This document shows positions 10,792 through 37,617 of a DNA stretch of 64,000 bases, in pieces. The stretch is from NCBI GenBank assembly GCA_963169045.1, contig CAUJDF010000094.1, forward strand, positions 1 to 64,000, written 5' to 3'. Under the pieces are notes generated by a model. That model worked only from the letters and a program-made list of their open reading frames with translations. It did not search any database and was not told the DNA's origin. The DNA comes from Myxococcota bacterium (GTDB taxonomy: Bacteria > Myxococcota_A > Bradymonadia > UBA7976 > UBA1532). The position numbers were made by a program, and so were the translations under genes. Position 1 is the first letter of the stretch. Every line of letters begins with the position of its first letter.

Positions 10792-10875
10792 CGCGGCCCA
10801 TCGGCCCTCCCCGCACCGGCGCGGGCATGCCTTCCCTTCGGTCCGCGGACCCATGCGCGGCCGCGATGGGACGGC

Positions 10876-10881
10876 TACCGT
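10876..10881 (+). promoter_or_regulatory. Leaderless-type -10 element for the pentaheme cytochrome gene
   Basis: TACCGT followed by 7 nt and the ATG at 10889, with no Shine-Dalgarno sequence. Same geometry as at 3726, 34081 and 45087. No good -35 hexamer is visible. Confidence 0.4.
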
Positions 10882-10888
10882 TCGCGAC

Positions 10889-13252
10889 ATGAGCACCTCG
10901 ACGCCTCGAAGTGTCGGTCTCGCCCTCTCCCTCTTCGCCACCGGCGCCGCCGCCCTCCCGCTCCCCGCCACGCCCGAGGACTTCCGCCTGCCCGGCGCGC
11001 AGCTCGGCGACGTCGCGCCGGGGGTCATCGTCCTGAGCGGCGAGTGCACGCGCTGCCACCACCTCGGCGAGGGCCCCGATCCCGGCGCCTCGTGGTCCGG
11101 CAGCCTCATGGCCCAGGGGGGGCGCGACCCGCTGTTCTTCGCGCAGATGACGCTCGCCAATCAAGACGTGGCCGGCGCCGGCACGTTCTGCATGCGATGT
11201 CATGTTCCGCTGGCATACGTCACCGGCGCGGCGATGGCACCCGACGGCAGCGCGCTCGATGGCACCGAGCAGGACGGCGTGGGGTGCCACCTCTGCCATG
11301 CGCTCGTCGACCCGGTCCACGACCCGGCGACCAGCCCCGCCCGGGACGCGGACGTCATCGCCGCCCTGCCGGAGGCGCCCCGGCACCACGGCAACGCGAT
11401 GTTCGTCCTCGACGGAGAGGGGCCGGTCCGCGGCGGGCGGGCGGATCCGGCGCCGGCGCACCAGACCACGCGGGCGCCGTTCCTGCGCAGCAGCGCCCTG
11501 TGCGGCACCTGCCACGACGTCGGCAACCCGGCCATCGTCCGCCGGGCGGACGGGACGTGGCGCTACGATCCGCTCGGCGCCGCGCCGCCGGACGCCGATC
11601 CCGTCGGCATGTTCCCGCTCGAGCGCACGTACACCGAGTGGCGCCTGAGCGCCTTCGCGCGCGGCGGGGTGGACCTGGGCGGCCGGTTCGGCGGCAACGG
11701 CGCGGCGCGCGTCGCCACGTGCCAGGACTGCCACATGCCGCGCGCGACCGGCCGGTCGGCCACCGAGGCCTTCATCCGCCCCGATCTCGCCCGCCACGAC
11801 TTCGCCGGCGCCGCGGCCCAGGCGCTCGACCTCGTGCTCGCCGCGGGCGGACCGGGCGTCGACCCGGTCGCGATCGCGCGCGGCCGGCGGGCGGCGGTCT
11901 CGATGCTCGAGCGCGCCGCGTCGCTCGCTTTGCGCCAGGACGGCCGGCGGCTGGTGGTGCGCGTCACCAACGAGACCGGCCACAAGCTGCCGACGGGGCA
12001 CATCGAGGGGCGCCGCGTCTGGGTCGGCGTGCGCTTCCTCGCGGCGGACGACGCGGTCGTGGCCGAGCATGGCCGCTACGACGCGGCGGGGGCGACCCTC
12101 CACGGCGACGACACCGCGGTCTACGAGATGCACGTCGGCCTCAGCGCCGAGGCGGCCGCCGCCACCGGCCTTCGCGCCGGGCGGACGGGGCACATGGTGC
12201 TCGCCGACACGATCGTCGAGGACGACCGCATCCCGCCGCGCGGCTTCCGGAACGCCGCGTTCGAGGCCGCCGGCGCGCCGGCGGTCGGCCGCGCCTACGC
12301 CGACGGACAGCACTGGGACGAGCCGGCGTACGCCATCCCGCCGGGCGCCGTCCGGGCGGAGGTGACGCTCTACTACCAGAGCACGCCGCGCGAATACATC
12401 GAGGCGCTGCGCGACGGGAACCGCACCGACGACCGCGGCGCCGTGCTGTACGCGCTGTGGGAGGCGAGCGGGCGCGGCGCCCCCATCGCGATGGCCGCCG
12501 CGGCGCTCGAGCTGGTCGCCTGTGACCCGTCCGACTGCGACGGCGACGGCGTGCCGGTCGAGGCCGACTGCGATGACGATCGCGCCCTGGCCCACCCCGG
12601 GGCGGAGGAGCGCTGCGACGGCGTCGACGACGACTGCGACGGCCTCGTCGACGAGGAGGACGCGGAGGCCGGGGCGCCGTGCGAGACCGGGCTCGAGGGC
12701 GTCTGCGCGGCGGGCGCGTGGCGCTGCGCGGGGGGCGCGCTGCGCTGCGACCCGGCGCCCGGCTGCGGCGGCGCGCCGGACGCGGGCGGCGGGGGCGCGG
12801 GGGGCGGCGGGGGGGCGGGGCCGGACGCGGGGGACGGGGGCGCGCGGGACGCGGGCGGCGACGCCGGCGGGGCCGGCGGCGGGGCGCCCGATGCGGGGGG
12901 CGCCGGCGGGGCGCCCGATGCGGGGGCCGCCGGCGGGGCGTCCGGCGCGGGGGGCGCCGGCGGGGCGCCCGATGCGGGGGGCGCCGGCGGGGCGCCCGAT
13001 GCGGGGGGCGCCGGCGGGGCGCCCGGCGCGGGGGGCGCCGGCGGGGCGCCCGGCGCGGGGGGCGATGCCGCGGCGCCGTCGGACGCCGGGCGTCCCGACG
13101 CGGCGGCGCGGACCGGCGACGCGCCGCCGGCCGACGATGGGTGCGCCTGCCGGACGGCGTCCGCCGGGCGGCCGAGCGTGGGGTGGCTGCTCGCGCTGCT
13201 CGGCACGGCGGCCGGTCGCCGCCGCCGCGTCGTGCGCGGGGCCGGATCGTAG
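10889..13252 (+). CDS. Surface pentaheme c-type cytochrome with MopE repeat and MYXO-CTERM-like tail
   Basis: 787 aa with a signal peptide ([19 protein letters not shown]...). Five CXXCH heme sites occur in the first ~290 residues: CTRCH, CMRCH, CHLCH, CGTCH and CQDCH. A beta-rich domain with [19 protein letters not shown] follows, a motif seen in c554-like multiheme proteins. A MopE-type Asp/Cys repeat ([23 protein letters not shown]) lies at ~547-600, then a Gly/Ala/Pro repeat linker. The tail CACRTASAG...VGWLLALLG...RRRR fits a MYXO-CTERM anchor: short Cys motif, helix, basic end. Predicted to be held on the cell surface after sorting. An oxidase or reductase role is inferred only from the hemes. 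Confidence 0.85.
12880..13070 (+). repeat. 27-bp in-frame repeats in the cytochrome linker
   Basis: About seven head-to-tail copies of a 27-bp unit encode the nonapeptide GGAPDAGGA and variants ([18 protein letters not shown]). They form a flexible Gly/Ala/Pro spacer between the MopE domain and the C-terminal anchor. Copy number is likely to vary by slippage in steps of nine residues. Confidence 0.85.
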
Positions 13253-28435: not shown

Positions 28436-29605
28436 ATGCGTTTTCCGGTCGTTTTTCTGTTCGCCGCCCTGTTGGCGGCCTGCGGCGCCGCGGATCCCGA
28501 GGCGCCGCCGCCTCCGCCCGAGACGAGCGCGGCGCCCGTCAGCGCGGCGCCCGCGAGCGTCGCCGCCCCCCCGCCGTCGTCGCCCGCGGACCACGGCGCG
28601 GCGCTCTACGCGAAGCTCTGCGCCCTCTGCCACGGCACCGATCGCGAGGGCTACGCCGCCGACAACGCGCCCTCGCTCAAGTCGAGCACGTTCCTCGAGA
28701 CCGCCACCGAGGCCTTCCTGCGGGACGCCATCGTCTTCGGCCGACCCGGCACGGCGATGGCCGGCTACGGCCGTCAGGTCGGCGGTCCCCTCCGGCCGAA
28801 CGACGTGGCCGCGCTCGTCGCGTTCCTCCGCCGCGACGCGCCGCCGCCCGTGGCGCTCCCCCCGGAGTCGATGGCCGGCAACGTCGCGAACGGCAAGGTG
28901 ATCTACGACCGCGAATGCGCCTCGTGCCACGGCACGCAGACGCAGCGCGGCACGGCGGTCCACCTCGCGAACATCCAGCTCCTGGCCTCGGCGCCGCCGG
29001 GCTTCCTGCGCTACGCGCTGGTCCACGGCCGGCCCGGCACGAAGATGGAGCCCTGGGGCGGCAAGCTCGACGCGCGGGCTCAGGACGACGTGCTCGCCTA
29101 CCTGCGCTCGCTGGCGATGCCGGTGCCGACGGCGCCGTCCGGACCGCCGCCGGTCCCGCCGTGGGGTCCGATCGTCATCAACCCCAAGGGCAAGGCGCCG
29201 ACGTTCGACCTGCGCGAGGGCCGGTACGCCTCCGTGGACCAGGTGGGCAAGGCGCTGCAGGCGGGCCGCAAGATGATCATCGTCGACGCCCGCGCGCCTT
29301 CCGACTGGCTGAAGATGCACATCACCGGCTCGCTGCCGCTGCCGTACTACCAGCTCGACCTGGTCGATCGGCTGCCCAACGACGGCACCACGGTGATCGC
29401 CTACTGCGCCTGCCCGCACCACGCGTCGGGCGTCGTCGTCGACGAGCTGCGCAAGCGCGGGTTCAAGAACGCGTACGTCCTCGACGAGGGCGTGTACGCG
29501 TGGCAGCAGAAGGGCTTCCCGGTGGTCGCCGCCGAGGGCTTCGAGAAGTTCCCGTCACCGCCCCACGACCACCACGGCCACGACCACCACGGCCACAAGC
29601 ACTGA
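28436..29605 (+). CDS. Diheme cytochrome c - rhodanese fusion lipoprotein
   Basis: 389 aa. Lipobox LLAAC (Cys16), Pro/Ala linker, two monoheme cytochrome c domains (CALCHGT ~62, CASCHGT ~161) and a rhodanese domain (~265-370) with its active-site Cys in IAYCACPHHASG (~324). The protein ends in a His-rich tail (DHHGHDHHGHKH) likely to bind metal. A periplasmic or surface electron carrier joined to a sulfurtransferase fold is unusual; it could couple persulfide chemistry or metal handling to electron transfer. GGAG precedes the ATG. It sits at the edge of the 30-heme cytochrome locus. Confidence 0.9.
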   Translation: MRFPVVFLFAALLAACGAADPEAPPPPPETSAAPVSAAPASVAAPPPSSPADHGAALYAKLCALCHGTDREGYAADNAPSLKSSTFLETATEAFLRDAIVFGRPGTAMAGYGRQVGGPLRPNDVAALVAFLRRDAPPPVALPPESMAGNVANGKVIYDRECASCHGTQTQRGTAVHLANIQLLASAPPGFLRYALVHGRPGTKMEPWGGKLDARAQDDVLAYLRSLAMPVPTAPSGPPPVPPWGPIVINPKGKAPTFDLREGRYASVDQVGKALQAGRKMIIVDARAPSDWLKMHITGSLPLPYYQLDLVDRLPNDGTTVIAYCACPHHASGVVVDELRKRGFKNAYVLDEGVYAWQQKGFPVVAAEGFEKFPSPPHDHHGHDHHGHKH

Positions 29606-29627: not shown

Positions 29628-30230
29628 TCAGAATTTGATGGGCAGCGGGATGCGGGGCAGCGGATCGGTGATGCGCCGCACCGCCTTCTTGTGGAGCGGC
29701 CGCGCCAGCACCTCGTCGAAGTCCACGGGCTTCGCCGTCCCGTCCATCGAGATGCCCACGACGCGCGCGCCGTTCGTCGCGGGATCCACCCGGATCGACC
29801 GCGCGAGCCGCTGCGGCTCGATGCCCGGCAGGTTCAGGTCGACGAAGACCACATGCGGCCGGAAGCCGGCGATGAGGCGGCCCGCATCGAACAGGTTGTC
29901 GGTGTGCTGGACCTCGTACGCGTCGTCCTGGCTCTCGCGCTGATCGTCGAAGACCGCGTCGAGGATGGCGTCGACCACCTGCGGGTCGTCGTCGACCACC
30001 AGGATGCGTCGCGTGCCGCCGGTCTCGACGCGCTCCTCCCATTGCATGGGGATGCCGTTCGTCCGGCAGAACTGCTCGAGGTCGGCGCGCATGATGCGCC
30101 GGTGCCCACCCGGCGTCTTGTACGCCCGGATACGGCCCTCCTCGATCCAACGGATGATCGTCATGGGCGTGACGCGACAGAAGCGCGCCGCCGAGTGCGT
30201 GGAGAAGACGTCCGGAACCTTTGCCGTCAT
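29628..30230 (-). CDS. HTH - receiver hybrid transcriptional regulator
   Basis: 200 aa. Residues ~7-60 are a MerR/excisionase-type helix-turn-helix (STHSAARFCRVTPMTIIRWI, RAYKTPGGHRRI). Residues ~75-190 are a CheY-like receiver (RRILVVDDDPQVVD, phosphoacceptor Asp in VVFVDLNLPG). The usual KP motif is replaced by RP (VLARPLHKK), so signalling by phosphorylation may be altered. The DNA-binding part is N-terminal, opposite to most response regulators. It is divergent from the electron-transfer operon at 30419 and faces the diheme-rhodanese gene, so it is a good candidate for their regulator. Confidence 0.85.
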   Translation of the reverse strand: MTAKVPDVFSTHSAARFCRVTPMTIIRWIEEGRIRAYKTPGGHRRIMRADLEQFCRTNGIPMQWEERVETGGTRRILVVDDDPQVVDAILDAVFDDQRESQDDAYEVQHTDNLFDAGRLIAGFRPHVVFVDLNLPGIEPQRLARSIRVDPATNGARVVGISMDGTAKPVDFDEVLARPLHKKAVRRITDPLPRIPLPIKF

Positions 30231-30418: not shown

Positions 30419-32038
30419 ATGCGCGACTTTGTGCGACGTTTCGGTTGGGCGGCGACGTGTGCCGTCGTCCTGGGGCTGGGTGGCTGTTCGGCGGAGAAGG
30501 ACGCCGGCGGGAGCTGCGACGCGGACGGCGACTGCGCCCGCGGCGAGATCTGCGCCGACGGCTCGTGCGCCGTGGAGCAGTGCAGCAGCATCAACGACTG
30601 CCCGGGTTCCGGCCGCACCTGCCTCGCCGATCTGCGGCAGTGCTCTCCAAAGGAGTGCGGCGACGCGGCCGCCGCGTGCAGCGGCGAGCGCTCGGTGTGC
30701 GTCGACTCCGGCTCGTTCCGGTTCTCGTGCGTCGCGCCCGGCTCGCTGTCGTGCGGCGGCGACGCCGACTGCGCGAGCTACGGCCCGGGCCTGTCTTGTT
30801 GCGGCGGCACCTGCCAGACGCAGTGCCAGGGGCCGATCAACGAGGACATGGGGCCGCCGCCCGGTGACGCGGGCCCGTCCGACGACATGGGCGCCGGCGA
30901 CGACGCCGGTGGGGACGACGCGGGCCCCGACATGAACGTGTCGCCCACGGGCCGTGCCTGCAGCCCGTGCCAGCGCGACGAGGACTGCGCGTCCCTCGGC
31001 GCGGGCGCCACCTGCACGCCCTTCGGCCAGCAGAACGCCCAGTTCTGTACGCCGGCGTGCGAGCCCGGCCGGGCGGGCCAGTGCCCGTCGGGCTTCACCT
31101 GCGTCCAGGGCCTGAACCAGTGCCTGCCGGCCACCTTCCGCTGCGAGCCGGGCTGCCTGACCGACGGCTGCCCCGACGGCAGCGTGTGCGACGCCGAGAG
31201 CGGCCAGTGCTCGGCGCCGCGCGCGGCGTGCGGCGTGTGCGCCCGCGACGAGGACTGCGCCGGCGACCTGAAGTGCCGCGCGTTCGGCGGGCGCAACCAC
31301 TGCCTCGCCGACTGCGCCGGCGGCCAGTGCGGCGACGGCTTCACGTGCGCCGAGGGCACGTGCCAGCCGGTCAGTGGCCGCTGCGACGCCTGCGGCGGCC
31401 GCTGCGCCGGCGCGACGCCGTTCTGCGTGGCCGAGACGGGCTCGTGCGCCGAGTGCGGCGACCGCACGCCGTGTCCCGACAACAAGGTGTGCAACCTGCA
31501 GACGCACACCTGCGAGGAGCGGATGGGCCCCGCCGGCTGCGTGAACGACGTCGACTGCACCAACAGCCCCGACGGGCGCTTCTGCTTCAGCGGCGAGTGC
31601 GTCCAGTGCCTGCAGGACACCGACTGCGGCCCGGGCCAGGGGTGCGACCAGGCCGCATGGCGGTGCGTCCCCATGCCGTGCCGCGGCGTCGCGTGCCAGG
31701 GCGGCGGCGTCTGCGACAACGCCACCGGCCGCTGCAACCCCGGCTGCAGCAACCGCAACGACTGCGTCGATGCGGTCGCGATGGACTGCAACCCCGTCAC
31801 GGGACAGTGCTACTACGTCAACGGCACGTGCGATCCGGCCGGCCGCGACGCCGTCTGCGCCCCCGGCTCGACCTGCACCCCGAACCTCTTCGATCCGAAC
31901 GCCGCCGGCTCCTGCTCCTGCGAGAAGGAAGACCCGGCGAACCCGCTCTCGCCGGACAAGATCCCCTGCAATCCCGGCGCGATCTGCATCACGCTCTTCC
32001 CCGGTCAGCCTGGCTTCTGCGCCGGCTTCGGCATGTGA
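30419..32038 (+). CDS. Cys-rich surface lipoprotein
   Basis: 539 aa. Signal with lipobox LGLGGC, then dozens of Cys in short CxxDxDC-type repeats (SCDADGDCARGEICADG, CQRDEDCASLGAGATC, CARDEDCAGDLKC), split by an Asp/Pro/Gly linker (~140-178). The repeats resemble disulfide-knot modules common on myxobacterial surfaces; no CXXCH heme motif is present. It overlaps the next gene as GTGA, so it is translationally coupled to the iron-sulfur membrane protein, which argues for a joint role. Function unknown; a surface partner or metal-binding scaffold are possibilities. Confidence 0.85.
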   Translation: MRDFVRRFGWAATCAVVLGLGGCSAEKDAGGSCDADGDCARGEICADGSCAVEQCSSINDCPGSGRTCLADLRQCSPKECGDAAAACSGERSVCVDSGSFRFSCVAPGSLSCGGDADCASYGPGLSCCGGTCQTQCQGPINEDMGPPPGDAGPSDDMGAGDDAGGDDAGPDMNVSPTGRACSPCQRDEDCASLGAGATCTPFGQQNAQFCTPACEPGRAGQCPSGFTCVQGLNQCLPATFRCEPGCLTDGCPDGSVCDAESGQCSAPRAACGVCARDEDCAGDLKCRAFGGRNHCLADCAGGQCGDGFTCAEGTCQPVSGRCDACGGRCAGATPFCVAETGSCAECGDRTPCPDNKVCNLQTHTCEERMGPAGCVNDVDCTNSPDGRFCFSGECVQCLQDTDCGPGQGCDQAAWRCVPMPCRGVACQGGGVCDNATGRCNPGCSNRNDCVDAVAMDCNPVTGQCYYVNGTCDPAGRDAVCAPGSTCTPNLFDPNAAGSCSCEKEDPANPLSPDKIPCNPGAICITLFPGQPGFCAGFGM

Positions 32039-34041
32039 CCGAGCCGGCCCTCGAGCTCAAGAAGGCGAAGAAGGCGCCGCCCAAGAAGGGCGGCAAGGGA
32101 GGGGGCAGCGAGGGACCGACCCCCGTCACGCCCGAGAAGCTCGCCGAGGTTCCGCTCTTCGCGCGGCTCGATGAGGCGCTGCGGGCCCGCCTCGCGCCGC
32201 GCACCACCTGGATCGAGATCGCCCGCGGCGAGACGCTCTTCGACGGCGCGCCGCTGGCCGACGAGGAGTCGCCCGTCTTCGTCGTCGTGAAGGGCGACGT
32301 CGACGTCCGCCGCCAGCGCAAGGGCGCCGCGCTCGAGATCGTCAACTACCTCTCGCCGGGCGAGGCGTACTTCCAGAAGCTCTTCGTCTCGGACGAGACC
32401 GAGCGCCTCGTTCTCACGGCCATGTGCCCGGTGCAAGCGCTCCGCGTCTCGTACCGGGACGTCAACTACGTGCTCAAGAAGGCCGCCGAGTTCAGAGACG
32501 ACTTCAGCGCCGCCATCAAGCACGTCACCGAGCGCCAGACGAGCCGCTTCGACGACCAGTTCCAACGCGAGATCTCGAAGTTCTTCGTCGAGCAGCGCCT
32601 GACCTTCGCGGGACGCGTCAAGGTCAAGCGCATGGACATCTGCATCGAGTGCGACGGCTGCTACGACGCCTGCCGCGATCGTCACGGCACCGACCGGCTC
32701 GGTCCCAGCGAGGTGAAGTACGGGCTCACCGAGATCCCGCAGAACTGCCACAACTGCCTCGTCCCCGAGTGCATGGACAAGTGCAAGTTCGGGCACATCA
32801 CGATCTCCCCCGAAACGAAGGAGATCGTGATCAGCGACAACTGCGTCGGCTGCACCCAATGCTCGCGTGGGTGCAGTTTCGGCGCTATTCGCATGCACTC
32901 GCTCGCTGATCTCGATGTCGCGAAGTACTTCCCGGACCGCAAGCCCGACGCGAAGGGCAAGAGCATCGCCCAGAAGTGCGACAACTGCACCGGCTACCCC
33001 GAACAGGCGTGCATCACCGCCTGTCCCACCGGGGCGCTGTTCCAGATCGACGGCTCGCGCATCTTCGAGTACTGGCAGCAGTTCAACGTCCACCAGACGC
33101 CGGGCCACGGCGCGGTGGCCTCGCCCGAGGCCAACACGCGGCGCATCCGCAACCTGTGGATCGCGTTCACCCTGCTGAACACGCTGCTCCTCGCGTGGGA
33201 GTGCTTCGGCCGCCTGCATTGGCCGGCGCTGACGTTCGCCGAGCTGTTCCACCGCCTGGGCCTCCTGGAGTCAGGCGTCGACCCGGTGGATCCGTTCCGC
33301 GAAGGCGACGCGTTCAGCCACGCGCTCGGCTACGTCGGGTGGGCGTTGCTGGGCGCGACGCAGCTCTACCGCCTCGGCAAGCGCTGGGCGCCGCGCTTCG
33401 GCAGCGTGCCGGCGTGGATGGAGGCGCACATCTATCTCGGCGTCCTCGGCGGCGTGTACGGGTTGTTCCACACGGCGTTCAGCTTCCACGGCCTGATCTC
33501 GGTGGCCGCGTTCTTCACCATGGTCATGGCCATCGCCACCGGCGTGCTCGGGCGCTTCGTGCTCTACCTCGTGCCGCGCAGCCGGGCCGGCGCGCAGCTC
33601 GAGCTCGCCGACCTCGAGGCCCGCATCCGCCAGCTCGACCGCGACATCCAGCACTGCTTCGTCGACCCGCGCGAGGGCGCGACGGTGATGGTCAAGATGG
33701 AGGACCTCGTCGCGCCGCCGCCGGGCAGCGACGCTGATGGAGAGAGGGCGCCGCTCTGGACCGGCCTCGTCCGCCTGCTCGGCGAGGACCGCGCCGAGAA
33801 GAAGAAGCTCGAGACGCTCGCCGCCGAGCTCGACGGCGGCAGCCTCCAGGCGGACCGCGCGAAGGCCCTGCTGCGCCTCATGCGGGAGAAGGCGCGCGCC
33901 GAGCGCTCCATGCGCCGCCACGCGTTCTTCGCCCGATTGCTCAAGCGTTACCGCGTTGTCCATGTCGTCGCGTCGAACATCATGTTCGGCGCGCTGCTGT
34001 TGCACGTCGTCTACTCGCTCATTTATCAGGTGAGCAACTGA
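32035..34041 (+). CDS. Cyclic-nucleotide-binding-like, 4x[4Fe-4S] and membrane b-type redox fusion
   Basis: 668 aa. Basic, Lys/Gly-rich start, then a CRP-like sensor domain (~40-150; PGEAYFQKLFV keeps the GE of the phosphate cassette but the rest is degenerate). Four ferredoxin Cys clusters follow: CIECDGCYDAC (~203), CHNCLVPECMDKC (~238), CVGCTQCSRGC (~270) and CDNCTGYPEQACITACP (~315), the pattern of DmsB/HybA-type electron subunits. From ~374 there are several membrane helices with His in EAHIYLGVLGG, LFHTAFSFHG, VVHVVASN and LLLHVVYS, suitable for b hemes, split by a charged coiled loop (~520-640). Predicted quinone-linked inner-membrane electron hub under allosteric control. GTG start overlaps the preceding stop. 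Confidence 0.88.
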   Translation: MTEPALELKKAKKAPPKKGGKGGGSEGPTPVTPEKLAEVPLFARLDEALRARLAPRTTWIEIARGETLFDGAPLADEESPVFVVVKGDVDVRRQRKGAALEIVNYLSPGEAYFQKLFVSDETERLVLTAMCPVQALRVSYRDVNYVLKKAAEFRDDFSAAIKHVTERQTSRFDDQFQREISKFFVEQRLTFAGRVKVKRMDICIECDGCYDACRDRHGTDRLGPSEVKYGLTEIPQNCHNCLVPECMDKCKFGHITISPETKEIVISDNCVGCTQCSRGCSFGAIRMHSLADLDVAKYFPDRKPDAKGKSIAQKCDNCTGYPEQACITACPTGALFQIDGSRIFEYWQQFNVHQTPGHGAVASPEANTRRIRNLWIAFTLLNTLLLAWECFGRLHWPALTFAELFHRLGLLESGVDPVDPFREGDAFSHALGYVGWALLGATQLYRLGKRWAPRFGSVPAWMEAHIYLGVLGGVYGLFHTAFSFHGLISVAAFFTMVMAIATGVLGRFVLYLVPRSRAGAQLELADLEARIRQLDRDIQHCFVDPREGATVMVKMEDLVAPPPGSDADGERAPLWTGLVRLLGEDRAEKKKLETLAAELDGGSLQADRAKALLRLMREKARAERSMRRHAFFARLLKRYRVVHVVASNIMFGALLLHVVYSLIYQVSN

Positions 34042-34080
34042 GGCCCTCCGGAGCGGGTGGACGCGTCGGGCGACCCCTCC

Positions 34081-34086
34081 TATAGT
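34081..34086 (+). promoter_or_regulatory. Leaderless-type -10 element for the 30-heme cytochrome gene
   Basis: TATAGT followed by 7 nt and ATG 34094; no Shine-Dalgarno sequence. A weak -35 (GTGGAC, 34057-34062) is 18 nt upstream. It gives the cytochrome-porin pair its own promoter inside the larger cluster. Confidence 0.5.
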
Positions 34087-34093
34087 CGCCCGG

Positions 34094-36313
34094 ATGCGCT
34101 GGCGCTGGACGGCCGTGCTCCTGCTGTGGAGCGTGCTCGGGGGGGTGGCGTGGGCGGCGCCGCGTCCGCTGTCGCAGCCGCATGCGCACCTCGACGACTC
34201 CGATCGGTGCAACTCGTGCCACGTGGCGTTCGGCGGCGTGCCGGCGGAGCGCTGCCTGGGCTGCCACCGCGACATCGACCAGCGCCTGCAGGCCCAGCGG
34301 GGCTTCCACGGCAAGGCCGCCCTGAACCTGCGCTGCAACGATTGCCATCGCGAGCACCTCGGCCGCCAACACGAGCTCACCCCGCTCGACCGCGCCACCT
34401 TCGACCACGACCAGACCGGTTGGCCGCTCCAGGGGGGGCACCGCGGCGTCGAGTGCCGGCGCTGTCACACGGCGAAGCGGCCCGGCACCGGCCGCGACAG
34501 CTACCTGAACCCCGAGAAGACGTGCCGGGGCTGCCATGGCGAGTACCACGGCACGCCCGCCGGCAAGGTCCGGCTCAACGAGTGCGACGCCTGCCACACG
34601 ACCTTCGAGTGGACGAAGCGCCAGGACCCGATGCGCTTCGACCACGAGCGCGAGACGCGCTTTCCCCGCACCGGCAAGCACCTGAAGGTCGAGTGCGAGA
34701 AGTGCCACCTCGACAAGAAGAGCTTCGGGCCCATCCAGGTGGCCGGCTGCGTCACGTGCCACCGCGACCCGCACCCGCCCGGCGCGTTCGGCGCGCGCAT
34801 CTGCGAGGAGTGCCACGTCACGCGCGACTTCAAGGACGTGGCGCTGTTCGACCACGGGAGCACGGGCTGGCCGCTCAAGGGGAAGCACCGAGAGCAGAAG
34901 TGCGCGGACTGCCACGAGTTTCCGCGCTGGAAGCCGCGCACGAGCGAGTGCGCCGGCTGCCACGAGGACGTGCATCGCGGTCAGTTCCGCGGCGTCTCGT
35001 GCGGCCGCTGCCACGAGGAGTCCTCGTGGACGAAGCTCTCGTTCGACCACGACGCGATGAGCCGCTTCCCGCTGAAGGGCCAGCACCGTAAGGTCGACTG
35101 CGGGAAGTGCCACAAGGACGGCCACTACAAGCCCATCGACCCCGCGTGCAAGAACTGCCATGCGGGCGCCAATCCCCACGGCACCACCTTTGGCGACACG
35201 CCGTGCTCCAACTGCCACGCGCCGACCGGCTGGCTCGACACGCGCTTCGACCACGGTGTCACCGGCTTTCCGCTCGCAGGCAAGCACGTCGAGCAGCCCT
35301 GCTTCCGCTGCCATCCCAATGGCACCGAGGTCGAGGACGACACCATCGCCGAGTGCGTCTTCTGCCACCGTGACGTGCACGCCGGGCAGTTCCAGGGCGC
35401 GTCGTGCGATCGTTGCCATGCCGGCTTCGAGCGGTGGCGCATCCCGTTCTTCGACCACACGCTGAGCCGCTTCCAGCTGGTGGGCAAGCACATCGAGGTG
35501 CGCTGCGAGGCCTGCCACAAGCAGGGCCACTACCGCCCCATCGACACCGCATGCGGGAACTGCCATCTCAACTTCCACGACGGGCAGTTCGCGAAGCCAT
35601 GCGACGAGTGCCACAGCCCCCACGGCTGGACGCTGGTCCAGTTCGACCACGACCGGCAGAGCGAGTTCGCGCTGTACGGGGAGCACCGCGGGCTGGACTG
35701 CAAGAAGTGCCACGTCGACAACGACTACAAGGGCCTCCCGTTCGACTGCGCCGGCTGCCACGTGGACGAGCACAAGGGCCGGCGCGGACCCGCCTGCGAT
35801 CGCTGCCACACGGCGGCCGACTGGTCGACGAACCAGGCGCGCAACCACGACTTCGGCGCCTTCACGCTCGGCGGGGTGCACGACCTCCTGGCCTGCGAGA
35901 CCTGCCACGGCCCCGAGCGGCGCCGGGAGCTCGCCGGCACCGGGCCGGAGTGCATCAACTGCCACCGCGACCCGCACTTCGGCAGCCTCGGCCCGCTGTG
36001 CCTCGACTGCCACACGCAGCAGCATTTCCTGCCGAGCACGTTCCTGCACGTCGAGACGGGCTTCCGGCTCTCGGGCGCCCACCGCTTCGTCGAGTGCCGC
36101 GACTGCCACCCCGGACGCGTCTACGGCGGCCTGCCGAGCACCTGCGACTTCTGCCACACCGACTCGTTCCAGCAGACGGCGGCACGGCCCGACTGCGACC
36201 ATACGCAGCACTGCCCGGGCGGCCTGGCGACGTGCCACACGTGCCACACGACGCAGGCGTTCGTGCCGGCGCGTCCCGGCACCAACTGCGGGCCGTGCGA
36301 GAGCAGCCGGTGA
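34094..36313 (+). CDS. Thirty-heme periplasmic c-type cytochrome built of triheme modules
   Basis: 739 aa. Signal peptide MRWRWTAVLLLWSVLGGVAWA, then 30 CXXCH motifs by direct count. After an opening set of three, nine modules of ~65-80 residues each start with a pattern like FDHxxTxFPLxGKHxxxxCxxCH and contain exactly three hemes, with conserved FDH and GKH histidines as likely distal ligands. This is the arrangement of fused cytochrome c7 domains, as in the Geobacter 12-heme GSU1996 nanowire. The last residues, CGPCESSR, look like a lost heme site. Predicted electron wire across the periplasm. It overlaps the beta-barrel gene as GTGA. Confidence 0.93.
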   Translation: MRWRWTAVLLLWSVLGGVAWAAPRPLSQPHAHLDDSDRCNSCHVAFGGVPAERCLGCHRDIDQRLQAQRGFHGKAALNLRCNDCHREHLGRQHELTPLDRATFDHDQTGWPLQGGHRGVECRRCHTAKRPGTGRDSYLNPEKTCRGCHGEYHGTPAGKVRLNECDACHTTFEWTKRQDPMRFDHERETRFPRTGKHLKVECEKCHLDKKSFGPIQVAGCVTCHRDPHPPGAFGARICEECHVTRDFKDVALFDHGSTGWPLKGKHREQKCADCHEFPRWKPRTSECAGCHEDVHRGQFRGVSCGRCHEESSWTKLSFDHDAMSRFPLKGQHRKVDCGKCHKDGHYKPIDPACKNCHAGANPHGTTFGDTPCSNCHAPTGWLDTRFDHGVTGFPLAGKHVEQPCFRCHPNGTEVEDDTIAECVFCHRDVHAGQFQGASCDRCHAGFERWRIPFFDHTLSRFQLVGKHIEVRCEACHKQGHYRPIDTACGNCHLNFHDGQFAKPCDECHSPHGWTLVQFDHDRQSEFALYGEHRGLDCKKCHVDNDYKGLPFDCAGCHVDEHKGRRGPACDRCHTAADWSTNQARNHDFGAFTLGGVHDLLACETCHGPERRRELAGTGPECINCHRDPHFGSLGPLCLDCHTQQHFLPSTFLHVETGFRLSGAHRFVECRDCHPGRVYGGLPSTCDFCHTDSFQQTAARPDCDHTQHCPGGLATCHTCHTTQAFVPARPGTNCGPCESSR

Positions 36314-37617
36314 AGCGGGCGCTCGTCGCGCTGCTGTTGGCGCTGCCGGCCCACGCCCGCGAGGCGGAGCTGGACGGGCGCATCTCCGTGCGCGGCCTGT
36401 ACTCGCGGGACACCGCCGGGGGCCCGGCGGTCGGCATGAGCTTCCTCGAGACCGACGCCCGGGCGGAGCGCCTCACCGACGGCGGCCTTCGGCTCGTGCT
36501 CGACGCGACGTTCCTGCTCGACATCACCGAGGCGAACGAAAGGCGCTTCGGGCGCACCGAGTCGCTGGACCAGGTGCGTCAGCTCTACGCCGAGCAGCCG
36601 GACCTGCTGCACGGGCTGGACGTGAGCCTCGGACGCAAGCTCGTGCTCGAGGCGGGCCACGGCTGGGTCGACGGCGTGGATCTCGCGCTGCGTTTCGACG
36701 AGCGACGGGCGACGCTGGGCGCCTACGGGGGCCTCTCACCGGACCGATTCGACTACGCGCTCACCACGGACTACCAGGCGGCGGGGGTGTACGGGACGCT
36801 CCATCGTGAAGGCTTCGACGGGGCGCTGGCCTTCAATACGGTGCTCTTCCAGGGCGCGCTCGACCGCCAGTGGGCCTTCAACCGCCTGCACTACCGGATT
36901 GCGCCGGGTTTGTTCGTCGCCAGCTACCTCGTCGTGGACTTCATCGAGATGCCCGCGGTGACGACACTGCTTGCGAGCGTCGATTACACGCCGGTACCGC
37001 CGCTCAACATATCCCTGAACTTCAGCCGCTACGCCGTCGAGCAGTATCGCAATACCACCATCTATCATGACGTCGTCGAGCCGAATCAGGCCCTCCTCAT
37101 CGGTGATGAGGTGCTGGACCTGGTCTACAACCGGGTGCGTCTGTCTGCTTCCGTCCGCTTCTGGGGCCACTACTACCACTATCAGACCGTCGAGCTCAAA
37201 GCGCGGACCCAGGACGATCGCGAGGCCTGGCTCTACACCCTGGGTGTGCGTGATGAGGACTTCCTCGGGTTCGGGACGCTCGTGGACCTGAGCGCGTCCT
37301 TCCGCAACAACTTCCAATCGGACTCGTACCTGGTTGCGCTGAACGTGGATCACGACCTCGGCGGTGCCTTCAGCGTGGAGGGGCGGGCGATCTGGTACGA
37401 CGGTCGCACCATCGGGCGCACGACCGACCGTGGGCGCATCTTCGACGAAGCGCAGCGGATCGTGCTGGTGGGAGGGGCGCTCTACTGGCGGCCGCTGAAG
37501 GCCCACCAGTTCGACGTGGACTACGACGGGGTGCTCGAGACCGAGCTGCAGGACGTGCGGAACGAAGACAGCCTGTTCATCCACACGTTCATGGGGCGAT
37601 ACAGCCTGCTCTTCTGA
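36310..37617 (+). CDS. Outer-membrane beta-barrel protein coupled to the 30-heme cytochrome
   Basis: 435 aa. GTG start gives a short signal (VKRALVALLLALPAHA). The rest alternates hydrophobic and polar residues with many aromatic girdles (RVRLSASVRFWGHYYHYQTV, FQSDSYLVALNVDHDLGGAF) and ends in ...RYSLLF, a C-terminal Phe typical of barrel insertion. No known porin family recognised. The 4-nt overlap with the cytochrome gene implies matched synthesis, as expected for a porin-cytochrome conduit. Base composition dips towards AT in 36800-37300, compared with neighbours. It ends 3 nt before the convergent frr gene. Confidence 0.82.
   Translation: MKRALVALLLALPAHAREAELDGRISVRGLYSRDTAGGPAVGMSFLETDARAERLTDGGLRLVLDATFLLDITEANERRFGRTESLDQVRQLYAEQPDLLHGLDVSLGRKLVLEAGHGWVDGVDLALRFDERRATLGAYGGLSPDRFDYALTTDYQAAGVYGTLHREGFDGALAFNTVLFQGALDRQWAFNRLHYRIAPGLFVASYLVVDFIEMPAVTTLLASVDYTPVPPLNISLNFSRYAVEQYRNTTIYHDVVEPNQALLIGDEVLDLVYNRVRLSASVRFWGHYYHYQTVELKARTQDDREAWLYTLGVRDEDFLGFGTLVDLSASFRNNFQSDSYLVALNVDHDLGGAFSVEGRAIWYDGRTIGRTTDRGRIFDEAQRIVLVGGALYWRPLKAHQFDVDYDGVLETELQDVRNEDSLFIHTFMGRYSLLF

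Follow-up and report, generated by a model that had tools for sequence, protein, structure and literature searches.

There is as yet no settled account of how electrons traverse the periplasm; the outer-membrane conduits known so far fall short of its width and depend on shuttles. Edwards et al. estimated that about 27 hemes would be needed to cross a periplasm of 200 angstrom (PMC7096707). Putative porin-cytochrome complex 3 (PCC3) was described in 2017 (He et al., PMC5566968) and is found in iron oxidisers (PMC5566968, PMC10734462). In the Gallionellaceae its periplasmic subunits have 21, 24 or 27 hemes and are proposed to span the periplasm, and electron storage has also been suggested for PCC3 cytochromes (PMC10734462). 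Published ratios for these periplasmic cytochromes are 22–39 residues per heme. The inner-membrane proteins (IMPs) of PCC3 and PCC4 have five transmembrane (TM) helices, with SGXXG on TM4 and WX3HX13H on TM3 and TM5, and two b hemes are proposed for them (PMC5566968). PCC3 remains functionally unverified (PMC12442390). Our best reading of the locus described here is that it encodes a PCC3-like conduit variant in Myxococcota, where we found no earlier report of a PCC3-type system in the open-licence literature.

The window, that is, the whole stretch of 64,000 nucleotides that we analysed, comes from a Myxococcota bacterium (contig CAUJDF010000094.1). The genes and domains of the locus are as follows.

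30419–32038, + strand: Cys-rich predicted lipoprotein with an LGLGGC lipobox, 539 aa, no heme motif
32035–34041, + strand: inner-membrane electron-transfer protein (IMP), 668 aa, with a cNMP-binding-like domain, a 16-Cys ferredoxin domain and five TM helices bearing two HX13H pairs
32122–32544, + strand: cNMP-binding-like domain of the IMP (about residues 30–170), profile matches to 2pqq (6.4e-9) and encapsulin 2B (9bhu)
32641–33024, + strand: ferredoxin domain of the IMP, assigned by Pfam Fer4 and a HycB3 profile
33154–34014, + strand: predicted di-heme b membrane module of the IMP, WMEAH-X13-H on TM3, TGVLG on TM4, H-X13-H on TM5
34094–36313, + strand: 30-heme periplasmic cytochrome of 739 aa, with about 24 residues per heme in the mature protein
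34094–34159, + strand: signal peptide MRWRWTAVLLLWSVLGGVAWAA, recognised by eye from the sequence
36310–37617, + strand: outer-membrane beta-barrel of 435 aa, modelled with 22 strands; its start overlaps the cytochrome stop (GTGA)

The lipoprotein gene overlaps the IMP start by 4 bp, the cytochrome gene begins 52 bp past the end of the IMP gene, and the cytochrome and barrel genes share the GTGA overlap. Given this tight spacing, the four genes look like a single operon. The lipoprotein belongs to no Pfam family; its homologue beside the operon is 40–47% identical in the family genomes checked and 28% identical in L069.

The earlier note had counted 30 CXXCH motifs in 739 residues, in ten groups of exactly three. 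A direct recount of the frame gives the same 30 motifs in the same ten triplets, whereas 2000 shuffles of the protein yielded a mean of 0.5 and a maximum of 4. The GC content of the window is 72.8%, open frames are many, and the antisense ORF at 34019–36247 is a shadow frame opposite the cytochrome gene. All 30 motifs are invariant across an alignment of 16 Myxococcota sequences that are 36–72% identical to the window protein, which argues that the 30-heme ORF is a real gene and not a chance frame of high-GC DNA. The protein is exported, and removal of the signal peptide leaves about 718 residues. The strongest single argument concerning the hemes comes from the histidines outside the motifs. 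There are 38 of these, and 30 are conserved in the same alignment (29 in 16 of 16 sequences and H703 in 15 of 16) while the other eight vary. Thus, the conserved candidates would be exactly enough distal ligands for 30 bis-His hemes, which argues that every heme site is used and bis-His ligated; we infer the pairing of individual histidines with individual hemes. A CGPCE sequence had been taken in the earlier note for a decayed heme site. Its counterparts in the aligned relatives read CGICD, CGLCE, CGNPE, CGDPE or CGLSCG, or there is nothing comparable, and this lack of conservation leaves a decayed 31st heme unsupported.

The ten triplets define ten blocks.

34166–34396, + strand: triheme block 1, a distinct N-terminal type whose HMM is specific for the N-terminus of 15-, 21-, 24- and 36-heme relatives
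34400–34636, + strand: triheme block 2
34637–34846, + strand: triheme block 3
34847–35041, + strand: triheme block 4, 50% identical to block 6
35042–35245, + strand: triheme block 5, 55% identical to block 7
35246–35449, + strand: triheme block 6
35450–35641, + strand: triheme block 7
35642–35839, + strand: triheme block 8
35840–36040, + strand: triheme block 9, one of the two best-conserved blocks
36041–36253, + strand: triheme block 10, the other of these two

Blocks 2–10 share the order His, 9–12 residues, Gly-x-His, CXXCH, CXXCH, His, CXXCH, and block 1 is laid out differently. Nine groups had been said to open with FDH...GKH...CXXCH. The His, Gly-x-His, CXXCH arrangement is indeed present in all nine of blocks 2–10, but the literal FDH holds in seven only, as block 9 has RNH and block 10 has FLH. 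The identities between blocks 4 and 6 and between blocks 5 and 7 (38% and 44%, respectively, once Cys and His are left out) suggest that a six-heme pair was duplicated in tandem, which probably produced blocks 4–5 and 6–7. This module alignment agrees with the proposal that the triheme modules arose by repeated duplication.

The modules had further been described as c7-like, which is fair at the level of sequence families. Pfam Cytochrome_C7 matches the protein in seven stretches (5.6e-32, 109.8 bits against a cut-off of 24.8), and Cytochrom_c3_2 is also assigned. In c7 cytochromes of the PpcA type the ligand order is H,H,CXXCH,H,CXXCH,CXXCH, such that the third distal histidine precedes the second CXXCH. 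The modules here instead follow H,H,CXXCH,CXXCH,H,CXXCH, and block 1 is different again; thus, the family-level part of the description stands, but the c7 fold of the modules is putative. A phmmer search of the PDB with the single 30-heme sequence gave no match. A profile search of solved structures ranked 16-heme cytochromes best, with GSU1996 (3ov0) close behind. These data bear on whether the protein could be a true chain of classical c7 domains, which would make it a long periplasmic nanowire like GSU1996 that has no outer-membrane partner. The seven Pfam stretches and the presence of GSU1996 among the profile matches speak for such a chain, but the unlike histidine order, the better rank of the 16-heme cytochromes, the conservation of IMP and barrel partners and far closer homologues among PCC3-type proteins make it very improbable.

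Comparison with relatives suggests how the length of these proteins evolved. An orthologue search that took in 142 related genomes showed that most genomes of the family carry the 30-heme protein, which also occurs within the order and class. Heme counts in relatives took in CX3CH and CX4CH besides CXXCH. On this basis four divergent Myxococcota homologues (L045, L071, L072 and L073) have exactly 30 motifs each. In L045, L071 and L073 up to five CXXCH are swapped for CX3CH or CX4CH with the total still at 30, so plain CXXCH counts are too low for such proteins. Other relatives have 15 (Planctomycetes), 21, 24 (Burkholderiales), 27 or 36 hemes, and the exceptions (20, 23, 23 and 26) each leave a remainder of two on division by three; L051 and L024 end in a block of only two hemes. 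Length seems to change by whole triheme modules, and the predominance of counts in threes (15, 21, 24, 27, 30 and 36) makes length adaptation by module duplication testable. On 24-heme proteins the block-1 HMM scores 61–67 bits, and the next block model reaches about 20. A one-to-one matching of the 24-heme blocks to blocks 2–10 failed, with a clear counterpart for block 1 only. As block 1 is so widely recognised and blocks 9 and 10 are the most conserved within the class, block 1 may face a widely shared partner, the IMP, and blocks 9–10 the lineage-specific barrel. Further ORFs of very high heme content lie next to relatives: L041 9548–14128 has 61 CXXCH in 1526 aa (Ignavibacteriales), L052 9307–12666 has 43 in 1119 aa (KSB1), and L040 9695–15277 has 48 in 1860 aa with a repeated spacing of 40-44-56-28-30-34-36 (Burkholderiales).

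The IMP combines features that point to electron transfer at the inner membrane. Its ferredoxin domain resembles HycB3 of the hydrogen-dependent CO2 reductase (profile, 3.4e-17) and contains 16 conserved cysteines in four groups (C203/206/209/213, C238/241/246/250, C270/273/276/280 and C315/318/326/330), which we predict to hold four [4Fe-4S] clusters. In the membrane module H465, H479, H643, H657, G503 and G506 are invariant. Its motifs WMEAHx13H, TGVLG and YRVVHx13H follow the PCC3 signature, with W on TM3, Y on TM5 and T in place of S on TM4, and the module has local similarity to the IMPs beside 15-, 20- and 24-heme relatives. The IMP gene adjoins the cytochrome–barrel pair in family genomes; in three same-order genomes it is present but lies on another contig. 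G001 (87% complete), the only family genome of fair assembly that has no cytochrome, also has no IMP. Gating of the IMP by a cyclic nucleotide is speculative. Divergent from the operon and before it, 29628–30230 (− strand) encodes an HTH_17/MerR-type regulator with a receiver-like domain; relatives keep this region next to the operon, and the regulator may therefore control the operon. Shortly upstream, 28436–29605 (+ strand) encodes a lipoprotein-like protein in which two cytochrome c domains are fused to a rhodanese domain, and a search of relatives turned up no homologue of it close to the operon.

The barrel was modelled by AlphaFold with 22 strands (pLDDT 82.8, pTM 0.74). Foldseek and VIA matched it to generic outer-membrane barrels, with MtrB unlisted, which excludes nothing, and it has no sequence match among solved porins. 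It lies directly downstream of the 30-heme gene in 14 of 14 same-class relatives with contig coverage. The cluster contains no extracellular multiheme cytochrome, and no other ORF of the window has more than five CXXCH. In the 95%-complete genome we found no PCC3-type extracellular cytochrome, as a 48-heme query of the extracellular type matched only the 30-heme gene; other cytochromes of up to seven motifs exist. The ORF at 10853–13252 (+ strand) encodes 799 aa with five CXXCH, a MopE-type metal-binding motif, a sub-threshold match to an MtrC/MtrF domain and a MYXO-CTERM-like tail (Cys, hydrophobic stretch, Arg-rich end). This is a possible surface pentaheme cytochrome and conceivably an outer partner of the wire, but we do not adopt it as such, as it is far from the operon and only moderately conserved. 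The missing extracellular cytochrome would suit a periplasmic electron capacitor, in which the 30 hemes serve chiefly for electron storage, as suggested for PCC3 cytochromes (PMC10734462), while oxygen levels fluctuate, and the barrel is an unrelated porin on a co-translated message. We consider this improbable, since every same-class relative checked has the barrel gene behind the cytochrome gene, often with an overlapping or adjacent start, and since conservation peaks in the C-terminal blocks, as docking would predict.

We instead favor, with a probability of roughly 70%, an electron conduit across the cell envelope, akin to PCC3 and composed of the ferredoxin/cytochrome-b IMP, the 30-heme wire and the barrel. 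With its ferredoxin domain predicted on the cytoplasmic side and two b hemes in its five helices, the IMP would link the periplasm, for electron exchange, to a cytoplasmic partner or to quinone. The cytochrome would meet the IMP through its conserved N-terminal block 1 and form one covalent heme chain reaching the outer membrane. At about 27 hemes per 200 angstrom (PMC7096707), 30 hemes would extend roughly 220 angstrom, so the suggestion in the earlier note that the protein is long enough to span the periplasm is plausible. The C-terminal blocks would dock at the 22-strand barrel or within it, exchanging electrons with something outside. The conduit is supported by the conserved heme motifs and histidines, by the cytochrome–barrel pair kept in same-class relatives with the IMP gene adjacent in the family, by the joint absence of cytochrome and IMP from G001, by homologues in clusters of an IMP and a 24-heme protein, by the cytochrome c assembly genes of the genome, and by the WX3HX13H, [ST]GxxG and HX13H motifs of the IMP, as published for PCC3/PCC4. 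Against it count the lack of an extracellular cytochrome in the operon, or of a PCC3-type one in the genome, and a barrel that is smaller than MtoB/PioB and matches no solved porin. The low-confidence AlphaFold model of the cytochrome built from the 16-sequence alignment (pLDDT 53, pTM 0.23) also counts against it, and the continuity of the heme chain is a prediction.

The genome contains cytochrome c assembly genes and six or more heme-copper oxidase genes that score above the cut-off, and no RuBisCO was found in it. In view of these oxidases and the lack of RuBisCO, we lean toward a role in shedding surplus electrons, or in flexible exchange in both directions, over autotrophic Fe(II) oxidation. 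The directional version of the conduit, in which electrons of extracellular Fe(II) or Mn(II) pass through barrel and wire to quinone and then through the oxidases to oxygen, is possible but doubtful; its likelihood overlaps with that given above for the conduit. The occurrence of PCC3 in iron oxidisers (PMC5566968, PMC10734462) and the several oxidases are consistent with inward flow. The ferredoxin domain fused to the IMP suggests a redox partner in the cytoplasm and not quinone alone, and the uncultured carriers have no known iron-oxidation phenotype. RuBisCO was the only carbon-fixation gene sought, and its absence speaks against autotrophic Fe(II) oxidation by way of the Calvin cycle; heterotrophic use, whether inward or outward, is unaffected by this argument.

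With an exact ligand supply for 30 hemes and both likely membrane ends encoded, the conduit that we favor offers a direct test case for the one-piece-wire model, and the fused IMP supplies an explicit path by which cytoplasmic Fe-S centres could be connected to the periplasm. We tentatively suggest, while regarding it as rather unlikely, that the single-polypeptide wire joins an IMP gated by cyclic nucleotides or otherwise to the barrel without an extracellular cytochrome, which would constitute a switchable line from cytoplasm to surface in Myxococcota.

Several known systems resemble this locus in part. MtrAB and MtoAB likewise place a cytochrome and a barrel at the outer membrane but have ten hemes, too few to cross the periplasm (PMC7096707). 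MtoB and PioB have 24–32 transmembrane regions, in contrast to the smaller 22-strand barrel here. GSU1996, the Geobacter dodecaheme cytochrome, also consists of tandem triheme modules and shows weak profile similarity (6.1e-6), but it has 12 hemes and another order of distal histidines, and to our knowledge it has no barrel or IMP partner. The earlier note had named it as the precedent, but the PCC3 periplasmic cytochrome is nearer and has the same kind of neighbours (PMC5566968, PMC10734462). PCC4 (He et al. 2017) shares the motif signature of the IMP and the lack of an extracellular cytochrome, and in one PCC4 subgroup an Fe-S gene adjoins the IMP gene (in one strain the two are annotated as a single gene); however, it has three periplasmic cytochromes of 4, 5 and 10 hemes rather than one 30-heme chain.

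The closest likeness is to PCC3. The 30-heme protein is homologous to the 24-heme proteins of six betaproteobacterial MAG clusters, with about 35% identity to those of Burkholderiales and E-values down to 8e-90. IMPs of the same motif type lie beside 24-heme Burkholderiales, 15-heme Planctomycetes and 20-heme Bacteroidia homologues. One of the 24-heme clusters, L040, has the PCC3 layout of IMP, 24-heme protein, 48-heme protein and an 861-aa ORF that is a candidate barrel. The present system differs from PCC3 in its Myxococcota host, in having 30 hemes rather than 21–27, in the fusion of the IMP to a cNMP-binding-like domain and a 16-Cys ferredoxin, in a barrel (22 strands, 435 aa) smaller than most PCC3 porins, and in that no extracellular multiheme cytochrome was found. 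It has in common with PCC3 a very heme-rich periplasmic cytochrome, whose residues per heme fall within the published range, a beta-barrel gene in the cluster, a five-TM IMP with HX13H pairs on TM3 and TM5 and [ST]GxxG on TM4, and the homology of the cytochromes themselves. Thus, as these four features are shared and the extracellular cytochrome is missing, we call the system a PCC3-like variant and not PCC3.
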